Shown here: positions 13,526-50,039 of the stretch, piece by piece
Layout of the letters: every line of letters begins with the position of its first letter
Position numbering within the stretch: position 1 is the first letter of the stretch
The notes under the pieces: generated by a model
Databases searched by the model: none
What the model was told of the DNA's origin: nothing
Seen by the model: the letters and a program-made list of their open reading frames with translations, nothing else
Made by a program: the position numbers and the translations under genes
From: Bacteroidales bacterium
Lineage (GTDB): Bacteria; Bacteroidota; Bacteroidia; Bacteroidales; UBA7960
Direction: 5' to 3'
Assembly: GCA_003559855.1 (NCBI GenBank)
Contig: PWJZ01000027.1
Location: forward strand, 42,587 to 106,586
DNA: 64,000 bases

Positions 13526-13599
13526 TAGCGGGGACGGGAGTTGAACCCGTGACCTCCGGGTTATGAATCCGACGCTCTAACCGCCTGAGCTACCCCGCC
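13526..13599 (-). tRNA. tRNA-Met (anticodon CAT)
   Basis: The minus strand folds as a 74-base cloverleaf. The acceptor stem is GGCGGGG/CCCCGCT (the first pair is G-U), the D-arm starts 'TAGCTCAG', the anticodon loop is 'TTCATAA' with anticodon CAT, and the T-arm contains 'GGGTTCAACTCCC'. The discriminator base is A and CCA is not encoded. The G-U first pair argues against the initiator, whose first pair is usually unpaired with a run of three G-C pairs above the anticodon. Elongator Met is likely, but a lysidine-modified tRNA-Ile2 cannot be excluded by eye. Confidence 0.93.
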
Positions 13600-32846: not shown

Positions 32847-35800
32847 ATGAAAATACAGGAAGCTATAGGTAATAAAATATTAGTTCTTGATGGCGCCATG
32901 GGTACCATGTTGCAGTTGGAGAATTTGGATGAGGATGTTTTCAGGGGTACTATGTTCGGTGAGCATTCTGTTTGTTTGGAAGGGTTAAATGATATACTTG
33001 TACTAACCAGGCCAGGGGTTGTAAAAAAAATACATCAGGGTTACCTTGAAGCAGGTGCCGACATAATCACAACTAATACTTTCAATGCCAATTATATCAG
33101 CCTGAAACAGTATGAGCTTGGTTCATATGTTTATGAAATAAATCATAAAGCTGCCGGTTTGGCGAAAGATGCAATTGCCGGCTATAATAATAAATGCAGG
33201 GTTAAATCTTGTTTTGTGGCCGGTGCTATCGGGCCGACCGGGAAAACGGCTTCTGTTTCGCCTGATATTAAGAATTCCTCATATCGTGATGTTACGTTTG
33301 ATGATCTTTTTGAATCATATCGTCTTCAGGCGCAGGGATTAATAGATGGCGGGGTTGATATTCTGATGGTAGAGACAGTGTTTGATACTTTAAATGCCCG
33401 GGCAGCTCTCTATGCCATAAACGAAATACGCTCGGGGCTGAAAAGAGACATACCTGTATTGGTTTCGGTTACCATAGATGAAAGCGGTCGTAATTTTTCC
33501 GGTCAAACGGTTGAAGCTTTTTATAATTCGCTATTTCCATTCTCTTTATTTTCGATAGGTATTAACTGTTCATTCAGCGGTGATAAGATGGGGCCATATC
33601 TGAAAAGGCTTTCTGTTAAGTCTCAATTGCCCGTTAGCGTTTATCCCAATACGGGACTTCCCGGTGTTTTTGGCGATTATGACCAATCGCCTGGCCAGAT
33701 GGCAGAACAGATAGAAACTTTTTGCAGGGAGGGACTTGTCAATATAGTTGGTGGCTGTTGCGGAAGCAGGCCGGATCATATCAAAGCAATCGCAGAAACA
33801 GCTGCAAGGTATAAACCACGTGTTATTCAACAAAATCCACCTACAACACGTTTAAGCGGTTTGCAATCTTTGGGTGTAAAAGACAGTACCAGGATTATCA
33901 GAATTTCTGAAAAAACACATGTGACAGGTTCGAAAAGGTTTGCACGGCTGATAAGAGAAGAAAAGTATGAGGAAGCCCTGGAAATTGCAAGGGATCAGAT
34001 TACTGAAGGTGCTGATATTCTGAACATTAGTCTGGATGAAGGCATGATCGATACCCAAAAGGCGATTGTTACATTTCTTAACTGTCTTACTGCCGAGCCT
34101 GATATTGCCAATGTGCCGTTAATGCTTGATTCTTCAGATTTTGAAGTAATAAAAAACGGGTTGAAATGTTTGCAGGGACGCTCAATTATTAATTCCATAA
34201 GCTTAAAAGAGGGTGAAGATGTTTTTAAACAGAAAGCTTATGAGTCAAAGAAGTTTGGAGCTGTTGTTGTGGTGATGGCTATAGACGAAAAAGGGCAGGC
34301 TGATACTTTTGGCAGAAAAAAAGAAATATGCAGGCGGGCGTATGATATTTTAACCGTAGAGCTCAATTTTCAACCCGAAGATATTATCTTTGACCCCGGA
34401 GTTTTGGCTATTGGTACGGAAATTGAAAGTCATAATAACTATGCTGTTGAATTCATTGATTCCATCAGGTGGATTAAGCAAAACCTTCCCTATACTAAGG
34501 TAAATGCGGGTATTAGCAATATTTCATATGCGTTTTGTGGTAATAACTATCTCAGAGATATAATAAATTCCGTTTTTCTTTATCATTGTGAACAAGCCGG
34601 ATTAGATTTTGCCATAATAAATCCTTCTCAGATAATCGATTATCATGATATTCCGGCAAAGATCCGAAAAGCTGCCGAAGATCTGGTTTTGAACAGGCGG
34701 GAAAACGCCACCGAAAGGCTTGTTAAAATTGCATCAGGGTTCAGAAGCAAAAGCTTTTCCTATGAACAAAAGAGTACCTGGCGTAAGCAAGACCCCGAAA
34801 ACCGCATAATATACGCTTTATGTAACGGTTTTGCCAATTTTATCGAGAAAGATATTGAGGAGCTGATGAACAAACATGATAATGCCCTCGAAATTATTCA
34901 AGGTCCGCTGATGGAGGGTATGAAGAGGGTGGGAGATCTTTTCAGCAGTGGAAAGATGTTTTTGCCACAGGTGATAAAAAGTACCCGGGTTATGAACAGG
35001 GCCGTCGAATATTTAACCATGAAAATCGGAAAACATTACAGCTCAGCGGCTGAATCCGAAAAGGTTAAAAAGAAGATCCTGCTGGCTACGGTTGAAGGAG
35101 ATGTTCACGATATTGGGAAAAATATTATTGCACTGGTATTACGATCAAATAATTACAATGTGATTGATCTTGGTATTATGGTGCCGAATAAGGATGTTAT
35201 TAGCGCCATAGAGCATGAAAAACCCGATATTGTCGGCTTGAGTGGTTTGATATCTGCTGCGCTTGATAAGATGACGGATATTGTCAAAATTATGGAGCTG
35301 AAAAATTTCAGAATACCTGTTTTGCTTGGAGGTGCTGCTACTTCGGCACTGCATACAGCCGTAAAAGTGGCACCATTTTACGGCGGCACCGTTATTCAAG
35401 TACCTGACGTTGTACAAAGTATTACTGTTGTCAACAAACTGTTAGACTCTGATGCGGGCAGTGAAATTCAAAAGATACGAGAGCATCAGAAAAGGTTAAG
35501 GACAAGGTATATTAAGAAAAAAACTGCATCCAGGCTGCTTTCTCTGGAAGAAGCCCGTAAAATGAGGTACCGTTATAAAATGGAGCGACCGGTAAAGCCG
35601 AGGCTGCTTGGAACAAAGCTGTTTGACAATTTTGATTTAAACCAGCTGAGAAGATATATTGACTGGACACCTTTTTTTCATGGCTGGGGGTTAAAGGGTA
35701 AATATCCTTCAATATTTGAAAAGGAGCGAATAGGTAGTGAGGCGGAAAGACTTTTCGGGGAAGCGTATGCAATGCTTGACGATATTGAGAAAAATAAACT

Positions 35801-36503
35801 CATCCGCCCCAGGGGTATCATAGGTTTGTTTCCGGCCAACTCAAAAGATGATGATGTACTCATCTTCAAGGATGATAAAAGGAAGGATGTGATTATGAAA
35901 ATTCCTATGCTAAGGCAGCAGCAGGTTAAGGATAAAGATGGTTTTACATTGTCGCTGGCAGATTTTATTGCCCCTGTTGATCCGGGAATTGAGGATTATT
36001 TTGGCGGTTTTGCAGTTACCACGGGTATTGGTATAGAAAAGTATTTACAGACATTTAAAGAAAACGGCGACAGCTATAATAGTATAATGTTTCGTTTGAT
36101 CGCCGACAGGCTTGTAGAGGCTGCTGCTGAGATAATGCATGTGTGGGTCCGAAAGAAATACTGGGGTTATGTGCCCGACGAAAACCTGAGTATAGTTGAT
36201 CTTATCAAAGGAAAGTTTAAAGGCATCAGGCCTGCAGTAGGATACCCCGCCTGCCCTGACCACAGACTGAAGAAATATTTGTTTGACCTTCTTAAGGTGG
36301 AAGAAAGAATAGGTATTTCATTGACTGATATCTATGCTATGAAACCGGCAAGCTCTGTGTCAGGGTTTTACCTGGCTAATGATGCTTCAAAATATTTTGG
36401 CGTTGGAAAAATAGGTAAGGATCAGATAAGCGACTATGCTGACAGGCAAGGGCTTGACGTTGAAAAAACTGAAAAATGGCTTTATTTTGCTTTAAACAAA
36501 TAA
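32847..36503 (+). CDS. metH: cobalamin-dependent methionine synthase
   Basis: MetH transfers a methyl group from methyl-THF via cobalamin to homocysteine. All modules are present in 1218 residues. The homocysteine domain (1-325) starts 'DGAMGTML' and has the zinc cysteines in 'NCSFSGD' and 'GGCCGSRPDHI'. The pterin domain spans ~350-610. The helical cap (~640-735) is followed by the B12 domain, whose cobalt ligand is His ~754 in 'EGDVHDIGKN'. The AdoMet reactivation domain (~900-1218) has 'RPAVGYPACPDH'. It heads the methyl block; metF starts 16 bases after its stop. Confidence 0.97.
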   Translation: MKIQEAIGNKILVLDGAMGTMLQLENLDEDVFRGTMFGEHSVCLEGLNDILVLTRPGVVKKIHQGYLEAGADIITTNTFNANYISLKQYELGSYVYEINHKAAGLAKDAIAGYNNKCRVKSCFVAGAIGPTGKTASVSPDIKNSSYRDVTFDDLFESYRLQAQGLIDGGVDILMVETVFDTLNARAALYAINEIRSGLKRDIPVLVSVTIDESGRNFSGQTVEAFYNSLFPFSLFSIGINCSFSGDKMGPYLKRLSVKSQLPVSVYPNTGLPGVFGDYDQSPGQMAEQIETFCREGLVNIVGGCCGSRPDHIKAIAETAARYKPRVIQQNPPTTRLSGLQSLGVKDSTRIIRISEKTHVTGSKRFARLIREEKYEEALEIARDQITEGADILNISLDEGMIDTQKAIVTFLNCLTAEPDIANVPLMLDSSDFEVIKNGLKCLQGRSIINSISLKEGEDVFKQKAYESKKFGAVVVVMAIDEKGQADTFGRKKEICRRAYDILTVELNFQPEDIIFDPGVLAIGTEIESHNNYAVEFIDSIRWIKQNLPYTKVNAGISNISYAFCGNNYLRDIINSVFLYHCEQAGLDFAIINPSQIIDYHDIPAKIRKAAEDLVLNRRENATERLVKIASGFRSKSFSYEQKSTWRKQDPENRIIYALCNGFANFIEKDIEELMNKHDNALEIIQGPLMEGMKRVGDLFSSGKMFLPQVIKSTRVMNRAVEYLTMKIGKHYSSAAESEKVKKKILLATVEGDVHDIGKNIIALVLRSNNYNVIDLGIMVPNKDVISAIEHEKPDIVGLSGLISAALDKMTDIVKIMELKNFRIPVLLGGAATSALHTAVKVAPFYGGTVIQVPDVVQSITVVNKLLDSDAGSEIQKIREHQKRLRTRYIKKKTASRLLSLEEARKMRYRYKMERPVKPRLLGTKLFDNFDLNQLRRYIDWTPFFHGWGLKGKYPSIFEKERIGSEAERLFGEAYAMLDDIEKNKLIRPRGIIGLFPANSKDDDVLIFKDDKRKDVIMKIPMLRQQQVKDKDGFTLSLADFIAPVDPGIEDYFGGFAVTTGIGIEKYLQTFKENGDSYNSIMFRLIADRLVEAAAEIMHVWVRKKYWGYVPDENLSIVDLIKGKFKGIRPAVGYPACPDHRLKKYLFDLLKVEERIGISLTDIYAMKPASSVSGFYLANDASKYFGVGKIGKDQISDYADRQGLDVEKTEKWLYFALNK

Positions 36504-36519
36504 CCAAACTAAGAACACT

Positions 36520-37443
36520 ATGAAAATTACTGAAATTTTTGAAAGACAAAAAAGGACGTTTTCATTTGAATTTTTTCCACCCGGCGATTATCTGACGGCA
36601 GTGAAGTTTGGCATCAATGCCGGGCAATTAATAAAGCTTTATCCCTCATTTGTTTCTATAACATATGGCGCCGGTGGATGTACACAAACCAATACTTTCG
36701 ATCTGGTCGACCTTTTTCATAATGAACTGGGCTTTACATGCATGGCACACTATACATGTGTTAATGCTACCAGGGAAAAGATAGCTTACGACATGAGAAT
36801 TCTGCAGGATATGGGAATTCAAAATGTTATGTTGATAAGGGGTGATAAACCCAAAGACAAACCTTTGGTTTTTCCCAATCCTGACGGGTTCAATTATGGC
36901 AGCGACCTTGTTAAGTTTGTCAGGGAACGTTATGATTTTTGTATTGGTGCCGGTGCTTATCCCGAAAAACATACTGAAGCCCTATCATTGAAAAAAGATC
37001 TCGAAAATCTTAAAATTAAAATAGATGCCGGGGCTGATTTTCTGATAACACAAATGTTTTTCGACAATAAATATTACTGGGATTTTGTTAACAAGGCTAT
37101 ACAAAAAGGTATCAAATGCAGAATAATACCTGGTATTATTCCGATAACAAACTTCAAGCAGATAAGTAAATTCGCTGAATTAACAGGATCAACAATTCCG
37201 AAAAAAATATTTAAAAAGATTAAAGCATATCAGGATAATCCGAAAGAAATTTACAAGATCGGTCTTGACCTGGCAATAGAACAAGTCACTGATTTGCTTG
37301 AAAATGATGCTCCCGGCATTCATTTTTATACATTAAACAAAAGCAGGGTGGCTATAAAATTGTATGAATCGCTTTCTGGAGATTTTAAAGATGTGAAGAT
37401 GCTTTATGAAAAGAGTTTGACACCACATATGCCGGCTCCCTGA
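36520..37443 (+). CDS. metF: methylenetetrahydrofolate reductase
   Basis: MetF reduces 5,10-methylene-THF to 5-methyl-THF with FAD. The 307-residue TIM barrel begins 'FSFEFFPPGDYLTAVKFG', includes 'SITYGAGGCTQTNTFDLV' and 'NVMLIRGDKP', and has the family's C-terminal 'GIHFYTLNKSRVA'. It lies 16 bases after metH and supplies that enzyme's methyl donor. In an anaerobe it can also run in the oxidative direction on methyl groups coming from the corrinoid system, with an electron acceptor that is not visible here. Confidence 0.96.
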   Translation: MKITEIFERQKRTFSFEFFPPGDYLTAVKFGINAGQLIKLYPSFVSITYGAGGCTQTNTFDLVDLFHNELGFTCMAHYTCVNATREKIAYDMRILQDMGIQNVMLIRGDKPKDKPLVFPNPDGFNYGSDLVKFVRERYDFCIGAGAYPEKHTEALSLKKDLENLKIKIDAGADFLITQMFFDNKYYWDFVNKAIQKGIKCRIIPGIIPITNFKQISKFAELTGSTIPKKIFKKIKAYQDNPKEIYKIGLDLAIEQVTDLLENDAPGIHFYTLNKSRVAIKLYESLSGDFKDVKMLYEKSLTPHMPAP

Positions 37444-38059
37444 CAATAATTTTATATTGCATAAGATTTTGCAATACTGTCAATATTTTTAAAGGCAAAA
37501 GAAACGATGATCTCATTGAAGAGTTAATTGTCTTAATAATTCTGAAATAAAACTTGTGTTTAAGAATCTATTATATATCTTTGTAAAATCAAAGAAAAAT
37601 TGATTAGTTTAGTGATTGTACGGCATATTTTTCATAAAAAATACAAAGCTGAATATAATATAAAAGATGTTTTATTTATCAGACAGTCTTTGATATTATT
37701 ATGAATGGCAGCCGGGGTGTTCAATTAGGGCTTTGATCTGTTTATTGCAGGTTTTTATCGGAATTTGCAAAATCTATACTCCCATGCATCCCACAATTTT
37801 CTCTCAAATGAGAGGGTTTAGCGATCTTGAGAAACGGCGGTACGGCCGGAAAACAGGCTGAACGTTACTGAAACATTGCTCCGATATGCGATCTATAGCC
37901 TTCGGAATATGTCAAATGCTATATAATAAATAATTGAAAAAATTATTTGAAAAATTAAAAGTAATTTTATGTAAGAATTACTTGTGTTGTTGTTGATAAT
38001 TGTAATATTTCAAAAACAAGAATGGTAACACATTTTTAATAATAATAAAATTTATAATT
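37444..38059. other. long intergenic region and leader upstream of the corrinoid-protein gene
   Basis: 616 bases with no ORF. A promoter candidate at 37553-37583 would give a leader of ~470 bases. That leader is less AT-rich than other spacers at 37705-37910, and contains small hairpins such as CTCTC-AAAT-GAGAG (~37803) and CGGC-GGTAC-GGCCG (~37834). This is compatible with a structured RNA, but it does not match a riboswitch motif that I know. Confidence 0.5.
37553..37583 (+). promoter_or_regulatory. probable promoter of the corrinoid/MttB operon
   Basis: CTTG-N19-TATCTTTG lies ~475 bases upstream of the corrinoid-protein ATG. The -7 element is an exact consensus match and the -33 element has one mismatch. 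Confidence 0.5.
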
Positions 38060-38695
38060 ATGGATTTAAGCAGGATTTCAGAAACCCTTATATCAGGTAA
38101 GGCAGATGAATTAAAAAAAATGGTTGAAGAAGCTGTAAACGATGACGTAAATCCCAGTGATATACTCAATCAGGGTTTATTGCCCGGGATGGATGCTGTA
38201 GGCCAGAAGTGGAAAGCAGGCGATATGTTTATGCCTGAGGTTTTGCGATGCGCTAAAGCCATGAGCAGTGCAATGGATTATTTAAGGCCGAAACTGAAAG
38301 ATGACGATATAGGTAATGCGGGAACAATGGTTATCGGTACCGTAGCCGGCGATTTGCATGATATCGGGAAAGACCTTGTTGCTATGATGTTTGAAGGAGC
38401 CGGCTATAAGGTTATAAATCTCGGTATCGACCAGTCAAATGAAAATTTTATCAATGCCGTCAAAGAGCACAAACCTAAGTTGCTCGGCATGTCAGCTTTA
38501 TTGACCACAACCATGCCCAGGATGGGTGAAGTAATCAACTCACTTAAAGAAGCCGGCATTCGCGATCAGGTTACGGTAATAATTGGAGGAGCTCCTGTAA
38601 CCGATGATTTTGCCAAAGAAATCGGTGCTGACCTATATGGCCCAAATGCCGGTACTGCCGTCGGAATTGCCAGGGAGTACTTTCAGAAAAAATAA
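38060..38695 (+). CDS. methyltransferase cognate corrinoid protein (MttC/MtbC-like)
   Basis: A free-standing corrinoid carrier of 211 residues. The N-terminal ~85 residues form the helical cap domain ('ADELKKMVEEAVNDDVNPSDILNQGLLPGMDAVGQKW'). The B12-binding Rossmann domain has 'VAGDLHDIGKDLV' with the cobalt-ligating His at about 100, then 'LLGMSALLTTTM' and 'VIIGGAPV'. It would accept methyl groups from the MttB-type enzymes just downstream and hand them to the methyl-THF methyltransferase further on. It lies 200 bases upstream of the first mttB-like gene, and the spacer carries a heptad-repeat tract. Confidence 0.93.
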   Translation: MDLSRISETLISGKADELKKMVEEAVNDDVNPSDILNQGLLPGMDAVGQKWKAGDMFMPEVLRCAKAMSSAMDYLRPKLKDDDIGNAGTMVIGTVAGDLHDIGKDLVAMMFEGAGYKVINLGIDQSNENFINAVKEHKPKLLGMSALLTTTMPRMGEVINSLKEAGIRDQVTVIIGGAPVTDDFAKEIGADLYGPNAGTAVGIAREYFQKK

Positions 38696-38792
38696 TGTTC
38701 TTTTATAGCGCCGATGACTTTGTAATGAGTTATATGATTACCATCGACAGTGACACATGATGATTAGCGAGAGATGGGCTTGGCATTCATAT

Positions 38793-38818
38793 TAACCCGT
38801 TACCCGTTGCCCGTTATA
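38793..38818. repeat. degenerate heptad tract (acccgtt units)
   Basis: Three near-perfect 7-base units, aacccgt-tacccgt-tgcccgt-tata, in the spacer before the first mttB-like gene. It belongs to the same dispersed class as the tracts at 40458, 51633, 52510, 55120, 62438 and 63330. Confidence 0.6.
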
Positions 38819-38897
38819 ATAAAATAAAAGCTGGTTACACAAATATTAATTAATATATTATTATCAGAAATCAGAACTTCATAGACATTTTATACAG

Positions 38898-40346
38898 ATG
38901 AAAATAAATCAGATTGTTAATAAATCTATAAGGTTTAGGGTTCTTTCGGAGGATCAGATAGAGCAGATCTATTTTGCTTCTCTCGAAGTGCTTGAAAAAA
39001 CAGGGGGTATGGTTTATCATGATGAAGCCATAGAGTTGTTCAAAAACAGCAATGCGGTAGTCAGGGGTTATAATGTGCGTATTCCGTCTTATATGGTACA
39101 GGAGGCAATAAATTTTTATCCCAGGAAAATAACACTCTGCGGAAGGAATAAATCTCGTTCGCTTCATATACAGAAGGATACCGTAGCTTTTGGCACAGGG
39201 TCGGATTTGCCGTTTACCTACGACAGGGAAACGGGCGAAAGGCGGATAACGACATACAAAGATGTTAATAATGCAGCTAAGTTGGTGGATGCTTTGCCTA
39301 ATTACGATTTTTTCATGTCGCACGGAATAGTAAATGATGCTCCCAATACACAGACGTATGACCGGCATCAGTTTATGGCAATGCTTGACCAGTGTACAAA
39401 GCCCATGGTTTTAACCAGTGTTGACGGAGAAAGTCTCAGAGACTTATGGAAAATGGGATGCCTGGTGCAGGGGGGCGAAGAAGAATTCAGGCTTAATCCG
39501 TTGTTTGTTGTTTATATTGAGCCTATCTCACCGCTTAAAAATGACAGCACGGCTATTGAAAAACTGCTTTTTGCCGCAGAGAAAAAAATACCGGCTATGT
39601 ACACTCCATGCCCCAGTTCAGGTGCCACCGCACCGGCTACAATTGCAGGGATGCTGGTTCAATCGCTTACCGAAACTCTTATGGCTGTGGTTCTGTGTCA
39701 TCTCAAGAATCCGGGCAAACCGCTGATAATGGGTGGCGTTACTACTTTGCTGGATATGAAAAAATCAACCTATTCGTATGGCGCACCCGAACTATCATTA
39801 TCCTCGGCAGCAAATACCGATATATCAAAATGGCTTAATCTCCCCATGTTCTCAACAGGAGGTTGTACCGATTCCAAAATACTTGATGAACAGGCAGCAG
39901 CAGAACAAATGATGAACCTGTTTTATGCATACCTCTCGGGGGCCAACCTTGTGCATGATGTGGGATATATTGATCATGGCACCAACGCCTCGCTCGAAAG
40001 CCTCGTACTTAATGATGAAATGATAGGAATGGTAAAACAATTCGGCAAAGGTATTAATACCGATGATGACCATCTGGCACTTGAACTTATTGAAAAGGTC
40101 GGACCGGGCGGCGAATATTTTACTACCGATCATACCTATAAATACTGGAGAGAATGGTTTATGCCGCAACTACAGGACAGAAGTGATTATGAAACATGGA
40201 AAAACAGCGGAGCTAAAACGATGCTTGACAGAGTCAAGGAAAGAACACGACAACTGCTTGACTCACATAAACCGGAACCGCTTGATGAAAAACTGGAGAA
40301 AGAATTGAAGAAAATTATAAAAGATGCTGATGAGAGACATTCGTGA
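38898..40346 (+). CDS. MttB-family (trimethylamine methyltransferase superfamily, non-pyrrolysine) methyltransferase, paralogue 1
   Basis: 482 residues of the MttB/COG5598 TIM-barrel family, which moves a methyl group from a quaternary or tertiary amine to a corrinoid protein. The N-terminal 'VLSEDQIEQIYFASLEVLEKTGGMVYHDEAIELF' and the core 'PISPLKNDSTAIEKLLFAAEKKIPAMYTPCPSSGATAPATIAGMLVQSLTETL' are typical. The ORF is uninterrupted, so there is no pyrrolysine codon of the kind used by true trimethylamine MttB. Relatives without pyrrolysine act on glycine betaine, carnitine, proline betaine or other methylamines. The substrate here is unknown. Its cognate corrinoid carrier is encoded upstream. 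Confidence 0.9.
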   Translation: MKINQIVNKSIRFRVLSEDQIEQIYFASLEVLEKTGGMVYHDEAIELFKNSNAVVRGYNVRIPSYMVQEAINFYPRKITLCGRNKSRSLHIQKDTVAFGTGSDLPFTYDRETGERRITTYKDVNNAAKLVDALPNYDFFMSHGIVNDAPNTQTYDRHQFMAMLDQCTKPMVLTSVDGESLRDLWKMGCLVQGGEEEFRLNPLFVVYIEPISPLKNDSTAIEKLLFAAEKKIPAMYTPCPSSGATAPATIAGMLVQSLTETLMAVVLCHLKNPGKPLIMGGVTTLLDMKKSTYSYGAPELSLSSAANTDISKWLNLPMFSTGGCTDSKILDEQAAAEQMMNLFYAYLSGANLVHDVGYIDHGTNASLESLVLNDEMIGMVKQFGKGINTDDDHLALELIEKVGPGGEYFTTDHTYKYWREWFMPQLQDRSDYETWKNSGAKTMLDRVKERTRQLLDSHKPEPLDEKLEKELKKIIKDADERHS

Positions 40347-40457
40347 AATGAGTTAATCGGTTTTATGAGCTGAAAGTTGAGAACTATACCCTGTATTCGC
40401 TACTTCCCATTGGGGCCGGGAAAACGAAGGTTCAAGAATGAAAGGTTGCAGGCTATT

Positions 40458-40495
40458 GATTGCCGACCGCTTATTGCCCGTTACCCGTCGCTTAT
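40458..40495. repeat. degenerate heptad tract
   Basis: The stretch 'ttattgcccgttacccgtcgcttat' with neighbouring near-units is a degenerate 7-base repeat of the same class as at 38793, in the spacer between the two mttB-like genes. Confidence 0.5.
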
Positions 40496-40582
40496 ATAGG
40501 TTGGGATTTGGTTTATGGGCTTTTGGCCAATAATAAAAACACAAAATAATAAATAGAACGAAATTTCAATAATGAAATAAAC

Positions 40583-42055
40583 ATGATAGAAAGAACAAAT
40601 TACAAGGAACAACAAACTCCTTATTTCGAGGTATTGTCTGAAGACCAAAAAGAACGTATATTTAACGGGATGATGCGTACTTTGCAATATACCGGCGCCA
40701 ATGTACACCATGAAAAAGCGCGTGAACTGTTCAAAAAAGCCGGCTGCAAGGTTGACGGGGTGAGAGTTTATTTTCCCCCTGAAGTCACTTTAAACGCTTT
40801 ATCTACCGTACCACCTGTTACGGAGGTCTTTCCATGGAACGGAAATAGATCGAAAAAAATAATAATTGAAAAGAAAAGAAGCTATTTCGGTCCCGGGCCA
40901 ACACCGCCAAATTTTATAGATACCGATACTCTGGAGCGCAGAAAGTATTTAAGAAAGGATGCAAATATTGTAGCCAGGGTTTGTGATGCTTTACCAAATA
41001 TGGGATACGTTCAGTCGCTGGGTTCTATTAGTGATGTTACCAATGGTTTGGCTGATGTTTATGAATTTGCCGATATGGTACGCAATACTACTACGCCTAT
41101 TATGAGCTGGTCGTTTACCCGTGAAGGCTGTCATGACATACACAGGATGGGTATAGCCATGGCAGGCGGGGAGGAAGAGTTTAAACAACGCCCTAATTAT
41201 ATTTTTTATGGTGAGCCAATATCACCTTTGGTTAGTGATTTTCATGCCATAGATAAGTGCATGTATTGTGCCGAGCATCGTATACCTCAGGTATACAGCC
41301 CGTGTGCTATAGGTGGTGGAACAGTGCCTGCAACACATGCGGGTCAGATCGTTGTTGCACTTTCGGAATCAATGGTCGGAGTAATAGCCGCACAACTGAT
41401 GAGCCCGGGCACATGTGTTATTATCGGAGGTGTTCAGTCAATCCTTGATATGCGCTATTCCGTGTATTCCTACGGAGCACCCGAGCTTAGCCTGCTGAGT
41501 GCTGCAATGACCGAAATGGTACATTATTGTAATCTGCCAATGTACTCAACAGCAGGATGTACCGACACCAAGAAAATGGATATACAATCTGCTATGGAAG
41601 CAAGTCTGTCAATAAATGCCGCTATGATGAGCGGTGCAAATTTCGTCCACGATTGCGGTTATACCGAATCAGGACTGACGGGCGATGTATTCCAAACCGT
41701 GATGGACGATGAGATAATCGGAATGGCACGGATAATAGAAAAAGGAGTGGAAGTTAATGAAAAAACATTGGCTGTTGATGTGATTGACAATGTCGGACCC
41801 GGCGGACATTACCTTTATGAAGATCATACAATGGATCATTTTAGAGATCATTGGATGCCAACTCTTATGGACAGGAACAGTTATGAAGAATGGGACAAGC
41901 TGGGCAGAAAAACCATGAAAGAAAGGATCATTGATAAGACAAGAGATTTGATAGAAAACTATGAAGGTCCCAGAAGTAAGGTTTCTGAAAAAGCAGACAG
42001 CGAAATTGAGAAAATATTGCAGGAAGCCGAGCGGAGGATTAAAAGTGAAGGGTGA
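40583..42055 (+). CDS. MttB-family (non-pyrrolysine) methyltransferase, paralogue 2
   Basis: 490 residues, co-oriented with paralogue 1 but clearly diverged: 'YFEVLSEDQKERIFNGMMRTLQYTGANVHHEKARELFKKAGC', 'YSPCAIGGGTVPATHAGQIVVALSESMVGVIAAQLMSPGTCVIIGG', and the terminal 'LGRKTMKERIIDKTRDLIENYEGP'. No amber codon interrupts the frame. Having two different MttB homologues behind one corrinoid protein suggests either two substrates or stepwise demethylation (for example, betaine and dimethylglycine). This is inference. The spacer to the hydantoinase-type gene is 104 bases. Confidence 0.9.
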   Translation: MIERTNYKEQQTPYFEVLSEDQKERIFNGMMRTLQYTGANVHHEKARELFKKAGCKVDGVRVYFPPEVTLNALSTVPPVTEVFPWNGNRSKKIIIEKKRSYFGPGPTPPNFIDTDTLERRKYLRKDANIVARVCDALPNMGYVQSLGSISDVTNGLADVYEFADMVRNTTTPIMSWSFTREGCHDIHRMGIAMAGGEEEFKQRPNYIFYGEPISPLVSDFHAIDKCMYCAEHRIPQVYSPCAIGGGTVPATHAGQIVVALSESMVGVIAAQLMSPGTCVIIGGVQSILDMRYSVYSYGAPELSLLSAAMTEMVHYCNLPMYSTAGCTDTKKMDIQSAMEASLSINAAMMSGANFVHDCGYTESGLTGDVFQTVMDDEIIGMARIIEKGVEVNEKTLAVDVIDNVGPGGHYLYEDHTMDHFRDHWMPTLMDRNSYEEWDKLGRKTMKERIIDKTRDLIENYEGPRSKVSEKADSEIEKILQEAERRIKSEG

Positions 42056-42159
42056 GCTAAATCCACTGCGTCCACAAATCAGCACAGGTAAATGAACTCA
42101 CTCAGTGTTAATATTAATCGGCGAATAACAGCGAACAAGATAAAGCAGATTAAAAAGAA

Positions 42160-44187
42160 ATGAACCGTTATATCATAGGAATAAATACCGGAGGCACATA
42201 TACTGATGGTGTGCTTTTAGATTATGTTTCGCGGAAGGTGGTTTCAGCGGCAAAGTCGCTTACTGTCTCTAACGACCTTAAGATTGGTGTGATAAAGGTT
42301 CTGAAAAAGTTAAATATCAGGCAGGAATACGATATAAAGCTTGTTGGTATTTCAAGTACACTGGCTACCAATACTGTAGCTGAGGGTAAATCTAGAAAAG
42401 CGGGTTTGATACTGATTGGATATGATAGGGAATTGATTGATAAATTCAATCTTTTTGAAAGATTGCCGGCAGAAACAGTAGGATATTTTCGCGGCGGTCA
42501 TAATGCACAAGGTGTTGAGCTTGCATCTTTGGATAAGGAATCAATAAGGAAATGGGTTGTTGAGAATCAGCATAATATTGAGGCTGTTGCTGTTTCAGGT
42601 TATTTCAGCCCTTTAAATCCCGGGCACGAGGAAGCTGTATTTAAGATAATCAGTAAGCATACTGATTTGCCTGTTGTTATGGCACATCAGCTGTCCACAA
42701 AGCTTGATTCGGTTAAGCGTGCGGCAACGGCGGTTATAAATGCCTCGCTGGTGGCTGTAATGAATGATTTTATTAAAGCTGTCAACCATTCAATGCATGA
42801 GCTGGGTATAGATGCCCCTCTGATGATTGTAAGGGGAGACGGAACACTTATGCCTTCGGAGGATGCTGTTAACAAACCCGTCGAAACCATACTTTCTGGC
42901 CCGGCCGCCAGTGCAATAGGCGGAAAATTCCTCGCCGGCAATGCAAATATACTCGTGATAGACATGGGTGGAACTACTACCGATATGGCGCTGGTGTATA
43001 ACAACAGGGTAGTGGTGTCTGAAAACGGTGCAAAAGTCGGAAATTACCAAACAGCCGTTGAAGCTGCTAAAATAAGAACAATAAGCCTTGGATGCGATAG
43101 CCGCATACATCATAATGAAAAAAAAATATTGATGCTTGGACCCGACAGGGTAAGACCAATATCACAAATTGCCAGGCACCATGACAATGTATTGAATGAC
43201 TTCCATAATCTGAAAAAGAAAAGCATTATAAATAAAAACCCTGCTGAATTAGAATACTGGTACCTGCATGGAACGATCGATGAAAATTTATATGAATCGT
43301 TGAATGATGTTCAAAAAAAAGTTCTTGACTTGATTCAAAAACCTTATAAACTGTCTGATATTCTCAGCAAAACAGGTGTATATCATGTATCCCATTTTGA
43401 AATGGATAATTTTATTACGCAAGGCATAATAGAATGTTCAACACTTACCCCTACAGATATGTTGCATGTTGAAGGAAGCCTTGATCTTTGGAACAGGGAA
43501 GCGGCAACCATAGCACTGGAACATTATTGTAAAATTTATGGCAAAAAGCCAAAAAATTTTATTGAAGAGGTTTTCAACAAAATTACAGATATCCTGGTGG
43601 AAGAGATCATTATTTTTCTGGCGTGTCAAAATACGAATCCATCAGACATGCCTGCTTCTATCGACGGTGAATGGGGGAAGTGGATGTTGCAGCAAATATT
43701 GTATGGTGATAATCATTTTTTATCTATCGATGCCGGCAGCCGTTATCCTGTTGTTGGAGCCGGTGCACCGGCCAAACATTTTCTTAAAAGAGTTGCAGGT
43801 ACTATTAATGCTAAATTTGTTTTACCCGAAAATTTTGATGTGGCCAATGCCGTAGGAGCAGTTTCAGGCTCGGTATCAGAGATAAGAGAAGCTATTGTAT
43901 TTGCCCGTGACAGTAAAGAAAAATATGCATATATAGCCAAGCATGAAGGAAGGATTAAAAAGTTCAAAGAATATGCCGAATGTTGTGAATATGCTGAAAA
44001 AACAGTACGCAGGATTGCCAAACAAGCAGCAATGAATGCCGGAGCTGCCGACTGCTTTGTTGAGCTTGAAAGGAAGGTTGAAGGATCACTTTTAAGGTTT
44101 GTAGCAAGGGCTATTGGAAACCCGAAACTATCGAAAGGCAAAATGCGTGAAGACATGAATTACGAGCGTGAAATGGATAGCGGGTGA
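42160..44187 (+). CDS. hydantoinase/oxoprolinase-type ASKHA ATPase of the MttB cluster
   Basis: 675 residues with the N-terminal hydantoinase/oxoprolinase domain ('GINTGGTYTDGVLLD', an ATP-binding glycine motif) and the A domain with 'ILVIDMGGTTTDMALVY' and 'KPVETILSGPAASAIGG'. A middle insert (about 350-460, including 'LTPTDMLHVEG') and a C-terminal helical tail complete it. Classical members use ATP to open 5-oxoproline or hydantoin rings. Next to MttB, corrinoid and DUF1638 genes, the task is unclear. The fold is shared with ATP-dependent corrinoid activators (RACo-type), and no such activator is seen in the window, so an activator role is a testable idea. N-methylhydantoin hydrolysis is an alternative. 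Confidence 0.85.
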   Translation: MNRYIIGINTGGTYTDGVLLDYVSRKVVSAAKSLTVSNDLKIGVIKVLKKLNIRQEYDIKLVGISSTLATNTVAEGKSRKAGLILIGYDRELIDKFNLFERLPAETVGYFRGGHNAQGVELASLDKESIRKWVVENQHNIEAVAVSGYFSPLNPGHEEAVFKIISKHTDLPVVMAHQLSTKLDSVKRAATAVINASLVAVMNDFIKAVNHSMHELGIDAPLMIVRGDGTLMPSEDAVNKPVETILSGPAASAIGGKFLAGNANILVIDMGGTTTDMALVYNNRVVVSENGAKVGNYQTAVEAAKIRTISLGCDSRIHHNEKKILMLGPDRVRPISQIARHHDNVLNDFHNLKKKSIINKNPAELEYWYLHGTIDENLYESLNDVQKKVLDLIQKPYKLSDILSKTGVYHVSHFEMDNFITQGIIECSTLTPTDMLHVEGSLDLWNREAATIALEHYCKIYGKKPKNFIEEVFNKITDILVEEIIIFLACQNTNPSDMPASIDGEWGKWMLQQILYGDNHFLSIDAGSRYPVVGAGAPAKHFLKRVAGTINAKFVLPENFDVANAVGAVSGSVSEIREAIVFARDSKEKYAYIAKHEGRIKKFKEYAECCEYAEKTVRRIAKQAAMNAGAADCFVELERKVEGSLLRFVARAIGNPKLSKGKMREDMNYEREMDSG

Positions 44188-44342
44188 GGCAAATTATGCT
44201 GATATTAACCGATAACATATCAGCAATTATCAGTATAATCAATGCCTGAAATGTTTTGAGCGATAGTGAATATACAGGATCATCAGTACTTTGGTAATAA
44301 AAATAATTTACCTGAAAATACGGAACCAAGAAACATAACGAA

Positions 44343-45017
44343 ATGATCACAATAATAGCCTGTGCAAGTATAAAACCTGAATTGGAGCACATTAAAGCCG
44401 GTGCAAAAGATGTACAAATAAGATATTTGCCGCAAAACCTTCATCGCACTCCGGAGAAGTTGAAAAAGATGCTGCAGAATAAAGTGAATGAAGTAAAATA
44501 TAATGATGGAAAACTGGTATTGGGATTTGGGCTGTGCTCAAATGCCATTATAGGAATAAAAGCTCCGCAACAAGGTATGTACGTGCCATGTGCTCATGAT
44601 TGTATAACATTCTTTCTTGGAAGCCGGGAAAAGTACAATGAACTGTTCAGAAAGTATCCCGGCACATACTATCTGACAAAAAGCTGGATAGGTGACAAAA
44701 AAGATCCGCTCGGATTATTGGAAAATGAATATACCCAAAGGGTTGGCAAAGAAATGGCAGAAGAAACAATGAGAAAGGAAATAATAAATTACGACTATAT
44801 CAGCTTTATCAATACATTGGATGATGATAGAGGTAAATGTCGTGAGAGAGCTAAAGAAAATGCTAAGTTTTTCAAAAAGAAGTTTATTGAGCATAAGGCT
44901 AACAATGATTTTTTCGGAAAAATAGTTTTTGGCCCTCACCAGAAACCCGACTTTATTTATATTGAAGCTTACAAAAGTGTTAAACAACAGGAAATTTTAA
45001 AATTAGGAGGTATTTGA
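44343..45017 (+). CDS. DUF1638 domain protein
   Basis: 224 residues of the DUF1638 family, whose function is not known. 'IIACASIKPELEHI' opens the domain and 'LVLGFGLCSNAIIGIKAPQQGMYVPCAHDCITFFLGSREKY' is the signature region. Several conserved cysteines (in 'ACAS', 'GLCSNA' and 'CAHDC') suggest metal or cobalamin contact, but this is inference. Its stop TGA at 45015 overlaps the spacer of the next gene's ribosome binding site ('TAGGAGG' at 45004), so the two are almost certainly translated together. The family is found in corrinoid methyltransferase neighbourhoods, which supports a shared role. Confidence 0.88.
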   Translation: MITIIACASIKPELEHIKAGAKDVQIRYLPQNLHRTPEKLKKMLQNKVNEVKYNDGKLVLGFGLCSNAIIGIKAPQQGMYVPCAHDCITFFLGSREKYNELFRKYPGTYYLTKSWIGDKKDPLGLLENEYTQRVGKEMAEETMRKEIINYDYISFINTLDDDRGKCRERAKENAKFFKKKFIEHKANNDFFGKIVFGPHQKPDFIYIEAYKSVKQQEILKLGGI

Positions 45018-45019
45018 TC

Positions 45020-45817
45020 ATGGAAATTGTTGGAGAATTGATAAATGCAAGCCGCAAAAAAATAAGGGATGACATTAAAGAAAAGAATAGTAAGGTAATT
45101 TCGAAGGTGGCCAAAGATCAGTATGAAGCAGGTGCAGATTATATTGATGTTAATGCAGGTATTTTTGTCGGTAAGGAGAAAGATTATATGAGATGGCTTG
45201 TAAAAACCGTGCAGGAAACTATTGATGCACCGTGCTGCATAGACTCGCCCGACCCTCAAGTTATTGAAGAAGCGGTAAAAGTACATAAAGGCATACCTAT
45301 GGTAAATTCCATTTCACTTGAAAAGGAGCGTTATGAAAACATGATAACTGTTATTAAGGGAGCAGATATGAAAGTCATTGCCCTATGTATGAGCGAGAAA
45401 GGAATGCCTTATACAAAAGATGAAAGAATGAAAATTGCTGATAAATTGGTCAACCGGCTGGTCAGCAATAACGTGGCTATAGAGAATATTTATGTTGATC
45501 CGCTGGTACAGCCGATAGGTTCCGGTGACAACCTTGGTATTGAATTTCTGAATGCTGTTGAACAGATACATGAAGAATTTGAAGGGATCCATACTATTTG
45601 CGGACTGTCTAATATATCATACGGAATACCTGCAAGGCAATTTGCAAATCAAACATTCATGATAATGGCAATAACCAAAGGTCTTAACTCGGCCATAATG
45701 AACCCTCTCGATAAAAAGATGATGGCAAACATTATCGCTGCCGAAATGCTTGCAGGAAAAGATCAGTTCTGTGAAAAATATATGAACGCATACAGGGAAG
45801 AATTGTTTAATTTTTGA
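45020..45817 (+). CDS. methyl-tetrahydrofolate:corrinoid methyltransferase (MtgA/AcsE/MtvA-like)
   Basis: 266 residues of a pterin-binding TIM barrel. 'VGELINASRKKIRDDI' and 'GADYIDVNAGIF' hold the THF-binding Asp/Asn, and 'CGLSNISYGIPARQF' is the family hallmark with the Asn that contacts N5. It should transfer methyl groups between the corrinoid protein and THF in either direction. The ORF track starts at a TTG (45014). The ATG at 45020 stands 9 bases after a perfect 'TAGGAGG' and is preferred. This is the second half-reaction of the MttB system, which links the cluster to MetF and MetH. Confidence 0.92.
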   Translation: MEIVGELINASRKKIRDDIKEKNSKVISKVAKDQYEAGADYIDVNAGIFVGKEKDYMRWLVKTVQETIDAPCCIDSPDPQVIEEAVKVHKGIPMVNSISLEKERYENMITVIKGADMKVIALCMSEKGMPYTKDERMKIADKLVNRLVSNNVAIENIYVDPLVQPIGSGDNLGIEFLNAVEQIHEEFEGIHTICGLSNISYGIPARQFANQTFMIMAITKGLNSAIMNPLDKKMMANIIAAEMLAGKDQFCEKYMNAYREELFNF

Positions 45818-45824
45818 TTTAATA

Positions 45825-45932
45825 ATGAGTTATTTAACTCAATATCTGAATGAAAAAGCAAAAGACAAGGTAAAATGTGAAATGTTAAAGGTAATAGTTG
45901 AGTGTGAAAAGGAAATAGGCGAGAAATGGTAA
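45825..45932 (+). CDS. short ORF of unknown significance (35 residues)
   Basis: An uninterrupted 35-codon frame, 'MSYLTQYLNEKAKDKV...IGEKW', begins 7 bases after the methyltransferase stop. The sequence is charged and helical with two Cys. I know no match. It may be a leader-like small protein, a remnant of a larger gene, or chance. Confidence 0.25.
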   Translation: MSYLTQYLNEKAKDKVKCEMLKVIVECEKEIGEKW

Positions 45933-46044
45933 GGAGAAAGTTGCAGTTTATGGTTTTTGGTTTTTTGTTGACTATCAGGTACTTTTAGAACCTATGGTTA
46001 TGAAATTATTAAAATAGAAATCAGTAAATGAAAAACACATATTC

Positions 46045-46881
46045 ATGACAAAGCAGAAATATTCAAATGATGTAGAAGTGGCAAGGAGTTATTATAACAG
46101 TCCGGACGCTCATAATTTCTATTACAGGATATGGGGTGGCGAGGATTTGCATCTTGGTTACTATAAATCCAAAAATGAGGATATTTATACTGCGAGCCGC
46201 AGGGCTGTTGACAGGATAGCTTCTTATATTGACAGAATTGGCAGTAATACGAAGATAATTGATTTCGGAGGAGGTTTTGCCGGTTCGGCTCGACACCTTG
46301 CCAAAAAATTCGGATGCCATGTTACAGTTATCAACTTAAGCGAAACTGAAAATGAGCGTGGAAGAAAAATGAATAAAGAGCAAGGTCTCAATCATCTGAT
46401 AGAGATCATTGACGGCAGCTATGATGATGTTCCGCTTGAAAATCAAAGTTTTGATGTAGTATGGTCGGAGGATGCCATATTGCACAGCAATAACAAGCCT
46501 GAGGTTATAGAAGAAGCTTTCAGATTGCTGAAGACCGGCGGCGATTTTGTGTTTTCCGATCCGATGCAAACCGATGATTGCAACGAAAAAGTCCTTAAGC
46601 CAATTTATGAAAGGATCAGATTATCCTCTTTAGGCTCGCCGAAATTTTACCGGCAGGAATGTAAAAAAACCGGCTTCAAACTCATGAATTTTGAAGAGCT
46701 GAGAAAGCATCTGATAATTCATTATTCAAGAGTTTTGGAAGAAACTGAAAAAAATGAGGAAGAGCTTAAAAAATACGTTTCTGACGATTATATGGAAAAT
46801 ATGAGGAAAGGCTTGAAGCATTGGATAAAAGGCGGTAAGGAAGGGAATTTAACATGGGGGATTTTTCATTTCAGGAAGTGA
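46045..46881 (+). CDS. sarcosine/dimethylglycine N-methyltransferase-like enzyme
   Basis: 278 residues that resemble known bacterial sarcosine/dimethylglycine N-methyltransferases (SDMT, BsmB): 'ARSYYNSPDAHNFYYRIWGGEDLHLGYY' at the start, the SAM-binding 'KIIDFGGGFAGSARHLAKKFGC' (about residue 72), 'NLSETENERGRKMNKEQGL', 'VFSDPMQTDDC' and 'GGKEGNLTWGIFHFRK' at the end. SDMT adds methyl groups from SAM to sarcosine and dimethylglycine to give glycine betaine, an osmolyte. No partner glycine/sarcosine methyltransferase is in the window. Its neighbour is ahcY, which removes the SAH product. Confidence 0.87.
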   Translation: MTKQKYSNDVEVARSYYNSPDAHNFYYRIWGGEDLHLGYYKSKNEDIYTASRRAVDRIASYIDRIGSNTKIIDFGGGFAGSARHLAKKFGCHVTVINLSETENERGRKMNKEQGLNHLIEIIDGSYDDVPLENQSFDVVWSEDAILHSNNKPEVIEEAFRLLKTGGDFVFSDPMQTDDCNEKVLKPIYERIRLSSLGSPKFYRQECKKTGFKLMNFEELRKHLIIHYSRVLEETEKNEEELKKYVSDDYMENMRKGLKHWIKGGKEGNLTWGIFHFRK

Positions 46882-47106
46882 GAGCGCTTGTAAACAAGGG
46901 TAAGGCGCTTTAGGCCCGAATAGCTGCTTAATTTGTGTAAATTTGTGCAACAGTTTGTGATAATCTGCAGATACGGCAACCGGATTTATTTTTTATGGAA
47001 AGGCAATTAGTCAATTAAACTAAACTTAAATTTGCATGTTATTTATTTTACACTTTGAAAACAGATAAAATTAATTAATAACGAAACATATAAAATTATA
47101 ACAGAC

Positions 47107-48531
47107 ATGAACAATTTAGAGAAGATTGATGAAAATGTAAAGTATCGGGTTAAAGACATAAATCTTGCGGAATTGGGCAGGCAGGATATTCGTTTGGCTG
47201 AACATGAGATGCCTGGTTTAGTGGAGTTAAGGAAGAAGCATGGCAAGGATAAGCCATTGAAGGGTGCCCGCATAATGGGGTCATTACATATGACCACTCA
47301 GACGGCTGTACTTATTGAAACGTTGACAGCTCTTGGTGCCGATGTACGATGGGCCAGTTGCAACATTTTTTCCACTCAAGACGAGGCTGCGGCGGCCATA
47401 GCTAAGACCGGGGTTCCGGTATTTGCATGGAAGGGGGAGACCCTTGACGAATACTGGTGGTGTACAGCCCAGGCATTGACTTTTCCGGGTGGCAAAGGGC
47501 CTGATTTGATCGTTGATGATGGCGGTGATGCCACATTGATGGTATTGTTGGGATATCGGGCCGAAACTGACCCGTCAATACTGGATAAAAAGGTGGATGC
47601 AGGAGATGAGGCAGCATTGTTTAAAAGACTTAAAAAATTGCAGGAACAAGATAAAGACAAATGGCACAGGGTGGTGAAAGACCTGAAAGGCGTTTCGGAA
47701 GAAACAACTACCGGCGTACACAGGCTTTATCAGCGTGAAAAAGACGGAACATTGCTGTTTCCTGCCATAAATGTGAATGATTCGGTAACCAAATCAAAAT
47801 TTGACAACAATTACGGTAACAGGGAGTCACTTATTGATGGAATAAAGCGTGCTACAGATATTATGATAGCCGGTAAAACAACCGTGGTTTGCGGTTATGG
47901 TGGAGTCGGTAAAGGTTGTGCACAAGGCCTGGCAGCATTTGGAGCTAGGGTTGTAGTTACCGAAGTTGACCCGATATGTGCCCTGCAAGCGGCAATGGAA
48001 GGATATGAAGTGAAAACTGTTGAAGAGGTGCTCGATCGTGGCGATATATATGTCACGGCAACCGGCAACAGAGACGTCATTACGGTAGAACATATGCGAA
48101 AAATGAAAGATAAAGCAATTGTATGCAATATCGGGCACTTCGATAATGAAATACAGGTTGAAAAGCTCGAAATGCAAAAAGATGTCAAAAAAATAAATAT
48201 TAAACCGCAGGTTGATGAATATGTATTTGGTGATGGACACTCCATTATTATGCTGGCCGAAGGAAGACTGGTCAACCTTGGCTGTGCCACAGGACATTCA
48301 TCATTTGTCATGAGCAATTCGTTTGCAAACCAGGTGCTTGCACAAATAGACCTCTGGGAAAAGAAGCGTGAACCCGGTGTCTACAGGCTTCCTAAAAAAC
48401 TTGACGAAGAGGTTGCCATGGCGCACCTGAAACATCTTGGAGTAAGTCTTACAAAAATGACCGAAACACAATCCGAATATTTGGGAATACCGGTTAACGG
48501 ACCCTATAAAACGGATCATTATAGATACTAG
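47107..48531 (+). CDS. ahcY: adenosylhomocysteinase
   Basis: AhcY hydrolyses S-adenosylhomocysteine to adenosine and homocysteine and so relieves product inhibition of methyltransferases. The 474-residue sequence has the catalytic region '[21 protein letters not shown]', '[12 protein letters not shown]', the NAD-binding '[15 protein letters not shown]' (about residue 262) and '[10 protein letters not shown]', with the C-terminal '[10 protein letters not shown]'. The homocysteine it makes can return to MetH. It stands 225 bases after the N-methyltransferase and 236 before metK. TAAATTTG at 47027 resembles a -7 element without a clear -33. Confidence 0.97.
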
Positions 48532-48569
48532 AATATAGCAAATCAGCAAATAGAAAATGTAGGCATTAA

Positions 48570-48705
48570 TAACAAATAACAATAATCTAATGACAAACAA
48601 ATTACAAAATTGAAATCTCAATAAATGTTGTTTGGAATTTTAGTAATTGATCAATTGTGATTTATCCGGAATTTGTTTTTTGTAATTTGGAATTTATTAT
48701 TTGGT
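48570..48705. repeat. AT-rich imperfect inverted repeat between ahcY and metK
   Basis: The stretch 'caaataac...acaaattacaaaattg' is imperfectly complementary to 'tttttgtaatttggaatttattatttgg' 60-100 bases on, so the spacer could form a long AT-rich hairpin. It may be a terminator/attenuator-like structure, but low complexity alone can explain it. Confidence 0.3.
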
Positions 48706-48767
48706 GCTTCATTCATTAATAATACAGAAAGTCAATAATTTATAAATCAAATAAAACATAATATATT

Positions 48768-50039
48768 ATGCCATACTTATTTACGTCAGAATCAGTATCG
48801 GAAGGACATCCTGATAAAGTTGCGGATCAGATTTCCGATGCTGTACTGGATGCAATATTGAAAGATGACCCGGAATCAAAATGCGCGGCAGAAACTTTTG
48901 TCACCACAGGTCTTTGCCTTGTGGGAGGTGAGATAAGGACTGAAACTTATGTTGAGGTTCAGGATATAGCGCGTGAAGTAATAAGAAGAATTGGTTATAC
49001 AAAGCCTGATTTTCGTTTCGATGCCGATTCATGTGGTGTTTTGACTGCTATTCATGAGCAATCACCCGACATAGCCCAGGGTGTTGATAAAGAGAAACAA
49101 GAGGAACAGGGGGCAGGCGATCAGGGAATGATGTTTGGCTTTGCAACTAATCAAACCGAAAATTACATGCCATTGCCTTTAGATATAGCTCACCGGCTGA
49201 TGAGAGAGCTGGCTTCAATAAGAAAAGTGGGTGGCGAAATGCCATATCTGAGGCCTGATTCAAAAGCCCAGGTAACGTTTAAATATGATGATGATGATAA
49301 GCCCCTGGGGATAGATACCATTGTGGTTTCAACACAGCATGACGAATTTGTCAAGCCTATAGGAGGCGGCCAAAAAGCTCAACTTAAAGCTGATAAAGAG
49401 ATGCTGGGCAGAATCGAAACGGATGTGGAGAATATTCTTATACCAAGGGTGAAAGCAACGTATCCACCTGAAATACAAAAATATTTTGATGTCAAATACC
49501 GCTTGTATGTCAACCCTACGGGTAAGTTTGTTATTGGAGGACCACATGGTGATACCGGTTTAACCGGTAGGAAAATAATTGTTGACACTTATGGGGGTTT
49601 TAGCAGACATGGCGGCGGCTGTTTTTCTGGAAAGGATGCTTCGAAAGTTGACAGATCAGCAGCATATGCCTCAAGACATATAGCCAAAAATATGGTGGCT
49701 GCCGGTGTTGCCGACGAGATCGAAATACAGATTGCTTATGCTATTGGTGTGGCCGATCCCGTTAGCTTGTTCGTTGATGCAAAAAGACCGAAAGTGAAAT
49801 TATCAAACGAACAGATCGCTGAAAAAATAATAAAAATGTTTGACCTGAGACCCGGTGCCATTATTAAAAGATTCGGACTGAAAAATCCTATCTTTGAAGA
49901 AACCGCTGCCTACGGGCATATGGGCAGAACGCCCGGTAGAAAAGTGGTATATATAAATGGCAAAAGGAAAGAAGTGGAAACATTTACCTGGGAAAAACTT
50001 GATTACGTTGACAAAATCAAGGAAGAGTTCAAGATTTAA
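48768..50039 (+). CDS. metK: S-adenosylmethionine synthetase
   Basis: MetK makes SAM from methionine and ATP. The 423-residue protein contains the hallmark '[23 protein letters not shown]', the '[12 protein letters not shown]' loop and the P-loop-like '[20 protein letters not shown]'; the common form of the last motif is [19 protein letters not shown], so Ala is replaced by Cys and Pro-Thr by Ala-Ser. It closes the methyl block: SAM is used by the N-methyltransferase upstream and SAH is recycled by AhcY. Confidence 0.97.

Follow-up and report, generated by a model that had tools for sequence, protein, structure and literature searches.

De novo glycine betaine synthesis is described in Methanohalophilus portucalensis, whose GSMT/SDMT pathway (glycine/sarcosine and sarcosine/dimethylglycine methyltransferases) includes an SDMT with defined substrate residues and has metK and SAH hydrolase genes adjoining (PMC3176816). 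Betaine demethylation, on the other hand, is represented by the MtgB/MtgC/MtgA system of Desulfitobacterium hafniense (MtgA: PMC7154762), which combines a pyrrolysine-free MttB fold, a corrinoid protein and a folate methyltransferase. In 'Ca. Formimonas warabiya' and Sporomusa ovata, betaine clusters of the HydA type contain several MttBs, one or more corrinoid proteins, MTII and HydA, the last being part of known betaine demethylation clusters, and the 'Ca. Formimonas' cluster degrades betaine via dimethylglycine to sarcosine (PMC9768040). In Ruegeria, MtgBCDE links one corrinoid hub to methionine synthesis during aerobic betaine catabolism, with a methyltransferase described as bidirectional; no link to SDMT was proposed there (PMC12478193).

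The locus studied here shares features with each of these systems. The window, a 64,000-nucleotide stretch of DNA from a Bacteroidales bacterium, contains an array of 11 genes, all on the plus strand, running from metH to metK (32847-50039, Table 1). Several MttBs, a corrinoid protein, MTII and HydA occur together in it, the gene set of a HydA-type cluster, while metK and ahcY adjoin the SDMT-like gene as in the classical GSMT/SDMT pathway. Unlike the M. portucalensis system, most genomes of the present set lack GSMT and carry a corrinoid methyltransferase module instead. The array also differs from the D. hafniense system in having two MttBs, with Cys rather than Leu at the pyrrolysine position, in having no transporter genes inside the operon, and in joining SDMT and a SAM cycle to the module. 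HydA-type clusters serve catabolism and have BCCT/ProX and RACE genes nearby, whereas here SDMT, ahcY, metK, metF and metH accompany the module. A scan of the window for a glycine or other riboswitch near the operon found none, the sole RNA match being a tRNA (13526-13599). Judging direction from genomic context, we consider it reasonably probable that the array serves glycine betaine synthesis as one operon, with a corrinoid (B12) MttB module taking the place of GSMT.

Table 1. Genes of the array (window coordinates) and cobalamin riboswitches upstream of GSMT in other genomes (locus coordinates).
Feature	Position	Strand	Assignment and evidence
metH	32847..36503	+	full-length B12-dependent methionine synthase: PF02574, PF00809, PF02607, PF02310, PF02965
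metF	36520..37443	+	methylenetetrahydrofolate reductase: PF02219 275 bits; TIGR00676 296 bits, cut-off 294
mtgC-like	38060..38695	+	corrinoid protein: PF02310, PF02607; NF047996 MtgC 234 bits, below cut-off 370
mttB1	38898..40346	+	pyrrolysine-free MttB, proposed amine methyltransferase: PF06253 337 bits, cut-off 25
mttB2	40583..42055	+	second pyrrolysine-free MttB: PF06253 291 bits, cut-off 25; 2qne E=4e-61
hydA	42160..44187	+	hydantoinase/oxoprolinase-like ATPase: PF05378, PF01968, weak MutL
DUF1638	44343..45017	+	PF07796 126 bits
mtvA	45014..45817	+	methyltetrahydrofolate:corrinoid methyltransferase: NF005719 337 bits, cut-off 259; PF00809
sdmt	46045..46881	+	predicted sarcosine/dimethylglycine N-methyltransferase: NF041675 382.7 bits, cut-off 550 (not diagnostic, see text); PDB 2o57 E=2e-60
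ahcY	47107..48531	+	adenosylhomocysteinase: TIGR00936 620 bits, cut-off 498
metK	48768..50039	+	S-adenosylmethionine synthetase: TIGR01034 500 bits, cut-off 309
Riboswitch, G133 (Bacteroidales)	L065 6699-7002		RF00174 85.8 bits
Riboswitch, G010 (Desulfobacterales)	L076		RF00174 89.1 bits
Riboswitch, G486 (Desulfobacterales)	L132 9300-9502		RF00174 89.7 bits

The SDMT-like protein aligned to PDB 2o57 across residues 13-278 and carries all four of the Asp, His, Pro and Met residues reported as SDMT substrate residues (D143, H147, P173 and M174; PMC3176816). The same four were present in every SDMT aligned, GSMT-paired ones included. The NF041675 cut-off was discarded as a test of SDMT identity, since a GSMT-fused SDMT (447 bits) and a GSMT-paired SDMT (383 bits) also fall below 550. 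The gene is predicted to encode a sarcosine/dimethylglycine N-methyltransferase. SDMTs linked to the module mostly cluster in a clade separate from GSMT-linked SDMTs, as might be the case if an SDMT of this clade performed all three glycine methylations alone and the MttB module were unrelated in role. We regard this as very improbable: the substrate residues are identical to those of GSMT-paired SDMTs, and such an enzyme would explain neither why the MttB genes are strictly co-inherited nor why GSMT is under B12 control in genomes with this SDMT (both described below).

PF06253 covers both MttBs at full length and in-frame TAG is absent; the position occupied by pyrrolysine in Methanosarcina MttB is Cys323 (TGT) in mttB1 and Cys326 (TGT) in mttB2, which are 41% identical to each other. 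The solved structures closest to mttB1 are those of MtgB (2qne and 9yce). Cys occupies the pyrrolysine position in all mttB1 and mttB2 orthologues, against Leu in 2qne (D. hafniense MtgB) and 4yyc; this Leu, which we treated as an MtgB marker though it has no established role, is therefore missing from both proteins. Beyond the Cys/Leu difference, itself without proven meaning, the MttB sequences contained no clue to substrate. The Rfam model PYLIS_3 also matches pyrrolysine-free genes, with hits inside mttB1 of seven loci (L062, L066, L068, L007, L004, L011 and L097); taking these as pyrrolysine in the relatives' mttB1 was rejected, as the aligned codons read Cys. The source genome also encodes a third MttB homologue (L071:12603-14054, G000:C66), which has Ala at this position and lies next to an M55 D-aminopeptidase gene.

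MttB substrates are not readable from sequence and the wider family is diverse, so that the pair could in principle demethylate another methylated amine and supply methyls for SAM, with SDMT using external dimethylglycine or sarcosine; metH, metK and ahcY in the operon would suit such a role. We hold this to be improbable, because it would not require metF for methyl-THF and leaves unexplained both the complementarity with GSMT and the B12 riboswitch of GSMT.

MtvA passes the model for enzymes that charge corrinoids from methyl-THF (NF005719). metF accompanies the module and also GSMT (it lies beside GSMT in L073 and L077), as expected if both settings require methyl-THF. At the end of some operons come a pfkB kinase gene, possibly encoding adenosine kinase, and the corrinoid uptake genes btuFCD. 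In the array itself, MetH has its Hcy, pterin, two B12 and activation domains all in place (Pfam). Relatives carry variants at the metH position, with Hcy and activation domains only (L061:2959-5046, L067:13372-15510) or the activation domain alone (L004:838-1872, L072:10068-11120); at genome level, MetH lacks pterin and B12 domains in G145 and G165 and is reduced to the activation domain in G001 and G133. MtvA and MtgC may supply the missing pterin and B12 functions in G145 and G165, an arrangement that would need methyl flow from methyl-THF. The variants with Hcy and activation domains are possibly distributed methionine synthases sharing MtgC and MtvA, and the activation-domain-only genes possibly stand-alone corrinoid reactivases.

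RACE was absent from the assembly of the source genome and from 9 of the 11 module-bearing Bacteroidales tested (source genome included); given this absence, we infer that a MetH-type activation domain, not RACE, probably reactivates the corrinoid in most of these Bacteroidales. Desulfobacterales module clusters carry RACE together with an ACT-domain protein resembling glycine regulators. ACT-domain and YbaK-like genes lie within these clusters (L011:17005-18011, L096, L097, L009), and the ACT protein was seen in SDMT-bearing clusters only.

Genomes were drawn evenly from the two orders (295 Bacteroidales and 243 Desulfobacterales). SDMT was found in 9 of the Bacteroidales genomes and mttB1/mttB2 in 8, all within those 9; the MttB pair thus occurred in 8/9 SDMT-positive and 0/286 SDMT-negative genomes (Fisher p=7e-15). 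The one exception (G028, 79% complete) lacks MttB; its SDMT-ahcY lies close to the end of a contig. SDMT was present in 11 of the Desulfobacterales genomes, unfused in 8, all with the module (8/8), and fused to GSMT in 3, none with it (0/3). Four more SDMT genomes from the same phylum as the Desulfobacterales had an adjacent GSMT (4/4) and no module (0/4), and 3 further Desulfobacterales genomes hold an MttB2 relative at 63-66% without SDMT.

A scan of genome contigs with SDMT yielded 16 relatives, all from MAGs that, to judge by their sample labels, come from saline or soda-lake sediments. Among those with enough contig, the MttB genes mostly adjoin SDMT (exception L008), in Bacteroidales as well as Desulfobacterales. 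In the Bacteroidales the order metH-metF-mtgC-mttB1-mttB2-hydA-DUF1638-mtvA-sdmt-(ahcY-metK) is kept with small variations; hydA was found in the module loci having enough sequence, and the DUF1638 gene keeps its position between hydA and mtvA. Module proteins show good conservation between the two phyla, with 69-71% for MttB2 against 48-51% for MetK, as would be expected if the module had moved as a unit. The counts exclude two MAGs labelled 'Balneolales' (L004, L008) that have contigs bearing the module or SDMT, because they may be misbinned; the GC of L004 differs. Both also hold a GSMT-SDMT pair elsewhere, and either misbinning or transfer is possible.

More distant Desulfobacterales MttB pairs without SDMT, and second pairs in SDMT-bearing genomes, are in some cases next to transporters. 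Sister pairs of this kind, lacking SDMT and accompanied by a third MttB and by an MFS transporter, were seen at L104, L105 and L106 and are likely to be the module's catabolic relatives. A BCCT transporter gene, through which the host could import betaine, lies on the same contig (G000:C89:24600-26048), upstream of the window by about 16.5 kb. The module itself probably descends from a betaine demethylation system, given that MttBs are known as demethylases, that HydA clusters are catabolic, that some MttB pairs adjoin transporters and that the host carries BCCT; it may be reversible.

Within the window GSMT is absent, as a first-pass annotation of this DNA had stated, and a search of the source assembly (96% complete) also found none, the best match scoring 40 bits against a cut-off of 350. 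The query sequence for this search scores 502 bits on NF051855 and matches PDB 5gwx; generic methyltransferases give weak GSMT matches in control genomes too. Among 24 SDMT-positive genomes, 12 had the module only, 4 the module and GSMT, 7 GSMT only and 1 neither (Fisher p=0.008); the last is an incomplete MAG whose SDMT lies close to the end of a contig. The partner of SDMT is GSMT or the MttB module. In G547 the module and SDMT lie on an 822-kb contig and GSMT was not found; contigs of this length without GSMT mean that fragmentation is not the whole explanation for the missing gene.

Cobalamin riboswitches switch off B12-independent isozymes when B12 is present, as in metE/metH and nrdAB/nrdJ, so that the B12-independent enzyme is repressed where a B12-dependent isozyme exists. 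In three genomes with both routes, from two phyla, an RF00174 cobalamin riboswitch lies upstream of GSMT (Table 1). In the two Desulfobacterales (G010 and G486) a strong intrinsic terminator, a near-perfect hairpin with a T run (-31 kcal/mol), comes after the aptamer, and the GSMT ribosome-binding site is next, with no intervening gene; in G133 about 675 bases separate riboswitch and GSMT, and a clear terminator is absent. None of 7 module-free GSMT loci has a riboswitch (0/7), and none was seen on the GSMT contigs of G055 and G145, the latter contig starting inside metK. In G145, metF and metE (B12-independent methionine synthase) flank GSMT. From the three riboswitch genomes, GSMT appears to behave as a B12-independent stand-in for a B12-dependent isozyme, following the metE/metH pattern, except that the pair here is GSMT against the MttB module, of which we found no earlier description. 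In G010 and G486 every SDMT found belongs to the module cluster, so that when B12 is present and GSMT is shut off, SDMT could be fed by the module alone. If the module were demethylating under these conditions, SDMT would be caught in a futile loop, while a methylating module would provide it with dimethylglycine.

The main rival to synthesis is that the module demethylates imported or stored betaine to dimethylglycine, perhaps to sarcosine, at falling salinity, the removed methyls passing to THF and methionine, and that SDMT re-methylates the product at rising salinity. We judge this unlikely, though well short of negligible. The MttBs are homologous to MtgB, the HydA-type clusters of Sporomusa and DCMF are catabolic (PMC9768040), and Ruegeria is known to couple betaine demethylation with the synthesis of methionine (PMC12478193). 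BCCT occurs in 10 of 11 module-bearing genomes; as a discriminator of module direction we set it aside as uninformative, since it is present. However, a demethylase with SDMT would form a futile pair giving no net synthesis in the 12 GSMT-free genomes, and B12 repression of GSMT, rather than of SDMT, would go unexplained. The lack of a transporter in the operon, and Cys where D. hafniense MtgB and 4yyc have Leu, also count against it.

These results bear on the first-pass annotation, whose overall interpretation is partly supported. It had placed demethylase-type and methylating enzymes side by side at 38898-46881, which is borne out; that span does run from mttB1 to SDMT but is too narrow, as the array also takes in metH, metF, mtgC, ahcY and metK. 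Its suggestion that MttB might yield dimethylglycine or sarcosine appears sound at that strength. Its framing of the two as a futile pair, in which MttB strips the methyls that SDMT adds and regulated switching or different substrates are needed, fits poorly with a single co-inherited operon with a SAM cycle, with an MttB/SDMT set that replaces GSMT across two phyla, and with a B12 riboswitch on GSMT, where GSMT is present, SDMT remaining next to the MttB genes. That last arrangement makes sense if MttB feeds dimethylglycine to SDMT by methylation, and on balance we lean towards a module that makes, rather than destroys, the substrate of SDMT.

We think it rather likely, then, that betaine is made with B12, the MttB pair methylating glycine and sarcosine from methyl-THF, and that GSMT, where kept, is a riboswitch-controlled backup for B12 shortage. 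MetF would produce methyl-THF, from which MtvA would load the methyl group onto the corrinoid protein MtgC; MttB1 and MttB2 would methylate glycine and sarcosine, with dimethylglycine as the outcome (the assignment of acceptors to the two enzymes is a guess); SDMT would supply the third methyl from SAM, yielding glycine betaine; and AhcY, MetH and MetK would recycle SAM. Gene order, co-inheritance, GSMT complementarity, riboswitch placement and SDMT residues are the observations from which reaction direction, methyl acceptors and reactivation route were inferred. On general grounds of formation energy, a primary or secondary amine should accept a methyl from methyl-THF in a downhill reaction, whereas with a tertiary amine the reaction should lie close to equilibrium; reserving SAM for the last methylation would agree with this. 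The apparent saline or soda-lake origin of the relatives, where betaine demand is high, also suggests synthesis. Against synthesis stand the catabolic role of homologous clusters elsewhere, the MttB pairs next to transporters, the BCCT gene of the host, a riboswitch basis of three genomes and the existence of genomes with both routes (4/24). Literature searches found no precedent for B12-dependent betaine synthesis and no report of an MttB methylating an amine or running in reverse, the characterised members of the family being demethylases.

Working in the synthetic direction, the MttB module would probably make betaine more cheaply when B12 is available. If the model is true, a B12-dependent route would be added for a very widespread osmolyte, and MttB-family enzymes would act as biosynthetic methyltransferases. 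By our reckoning two SAM would be saved per betaine, in energy-short anaerobes that need much solute. MttB genes in metagenomes could then not automatically be counted as marking betaine degraders, and the salt tolerance of salt-lake sediment communities would be tied to the supply of vitamin B12.
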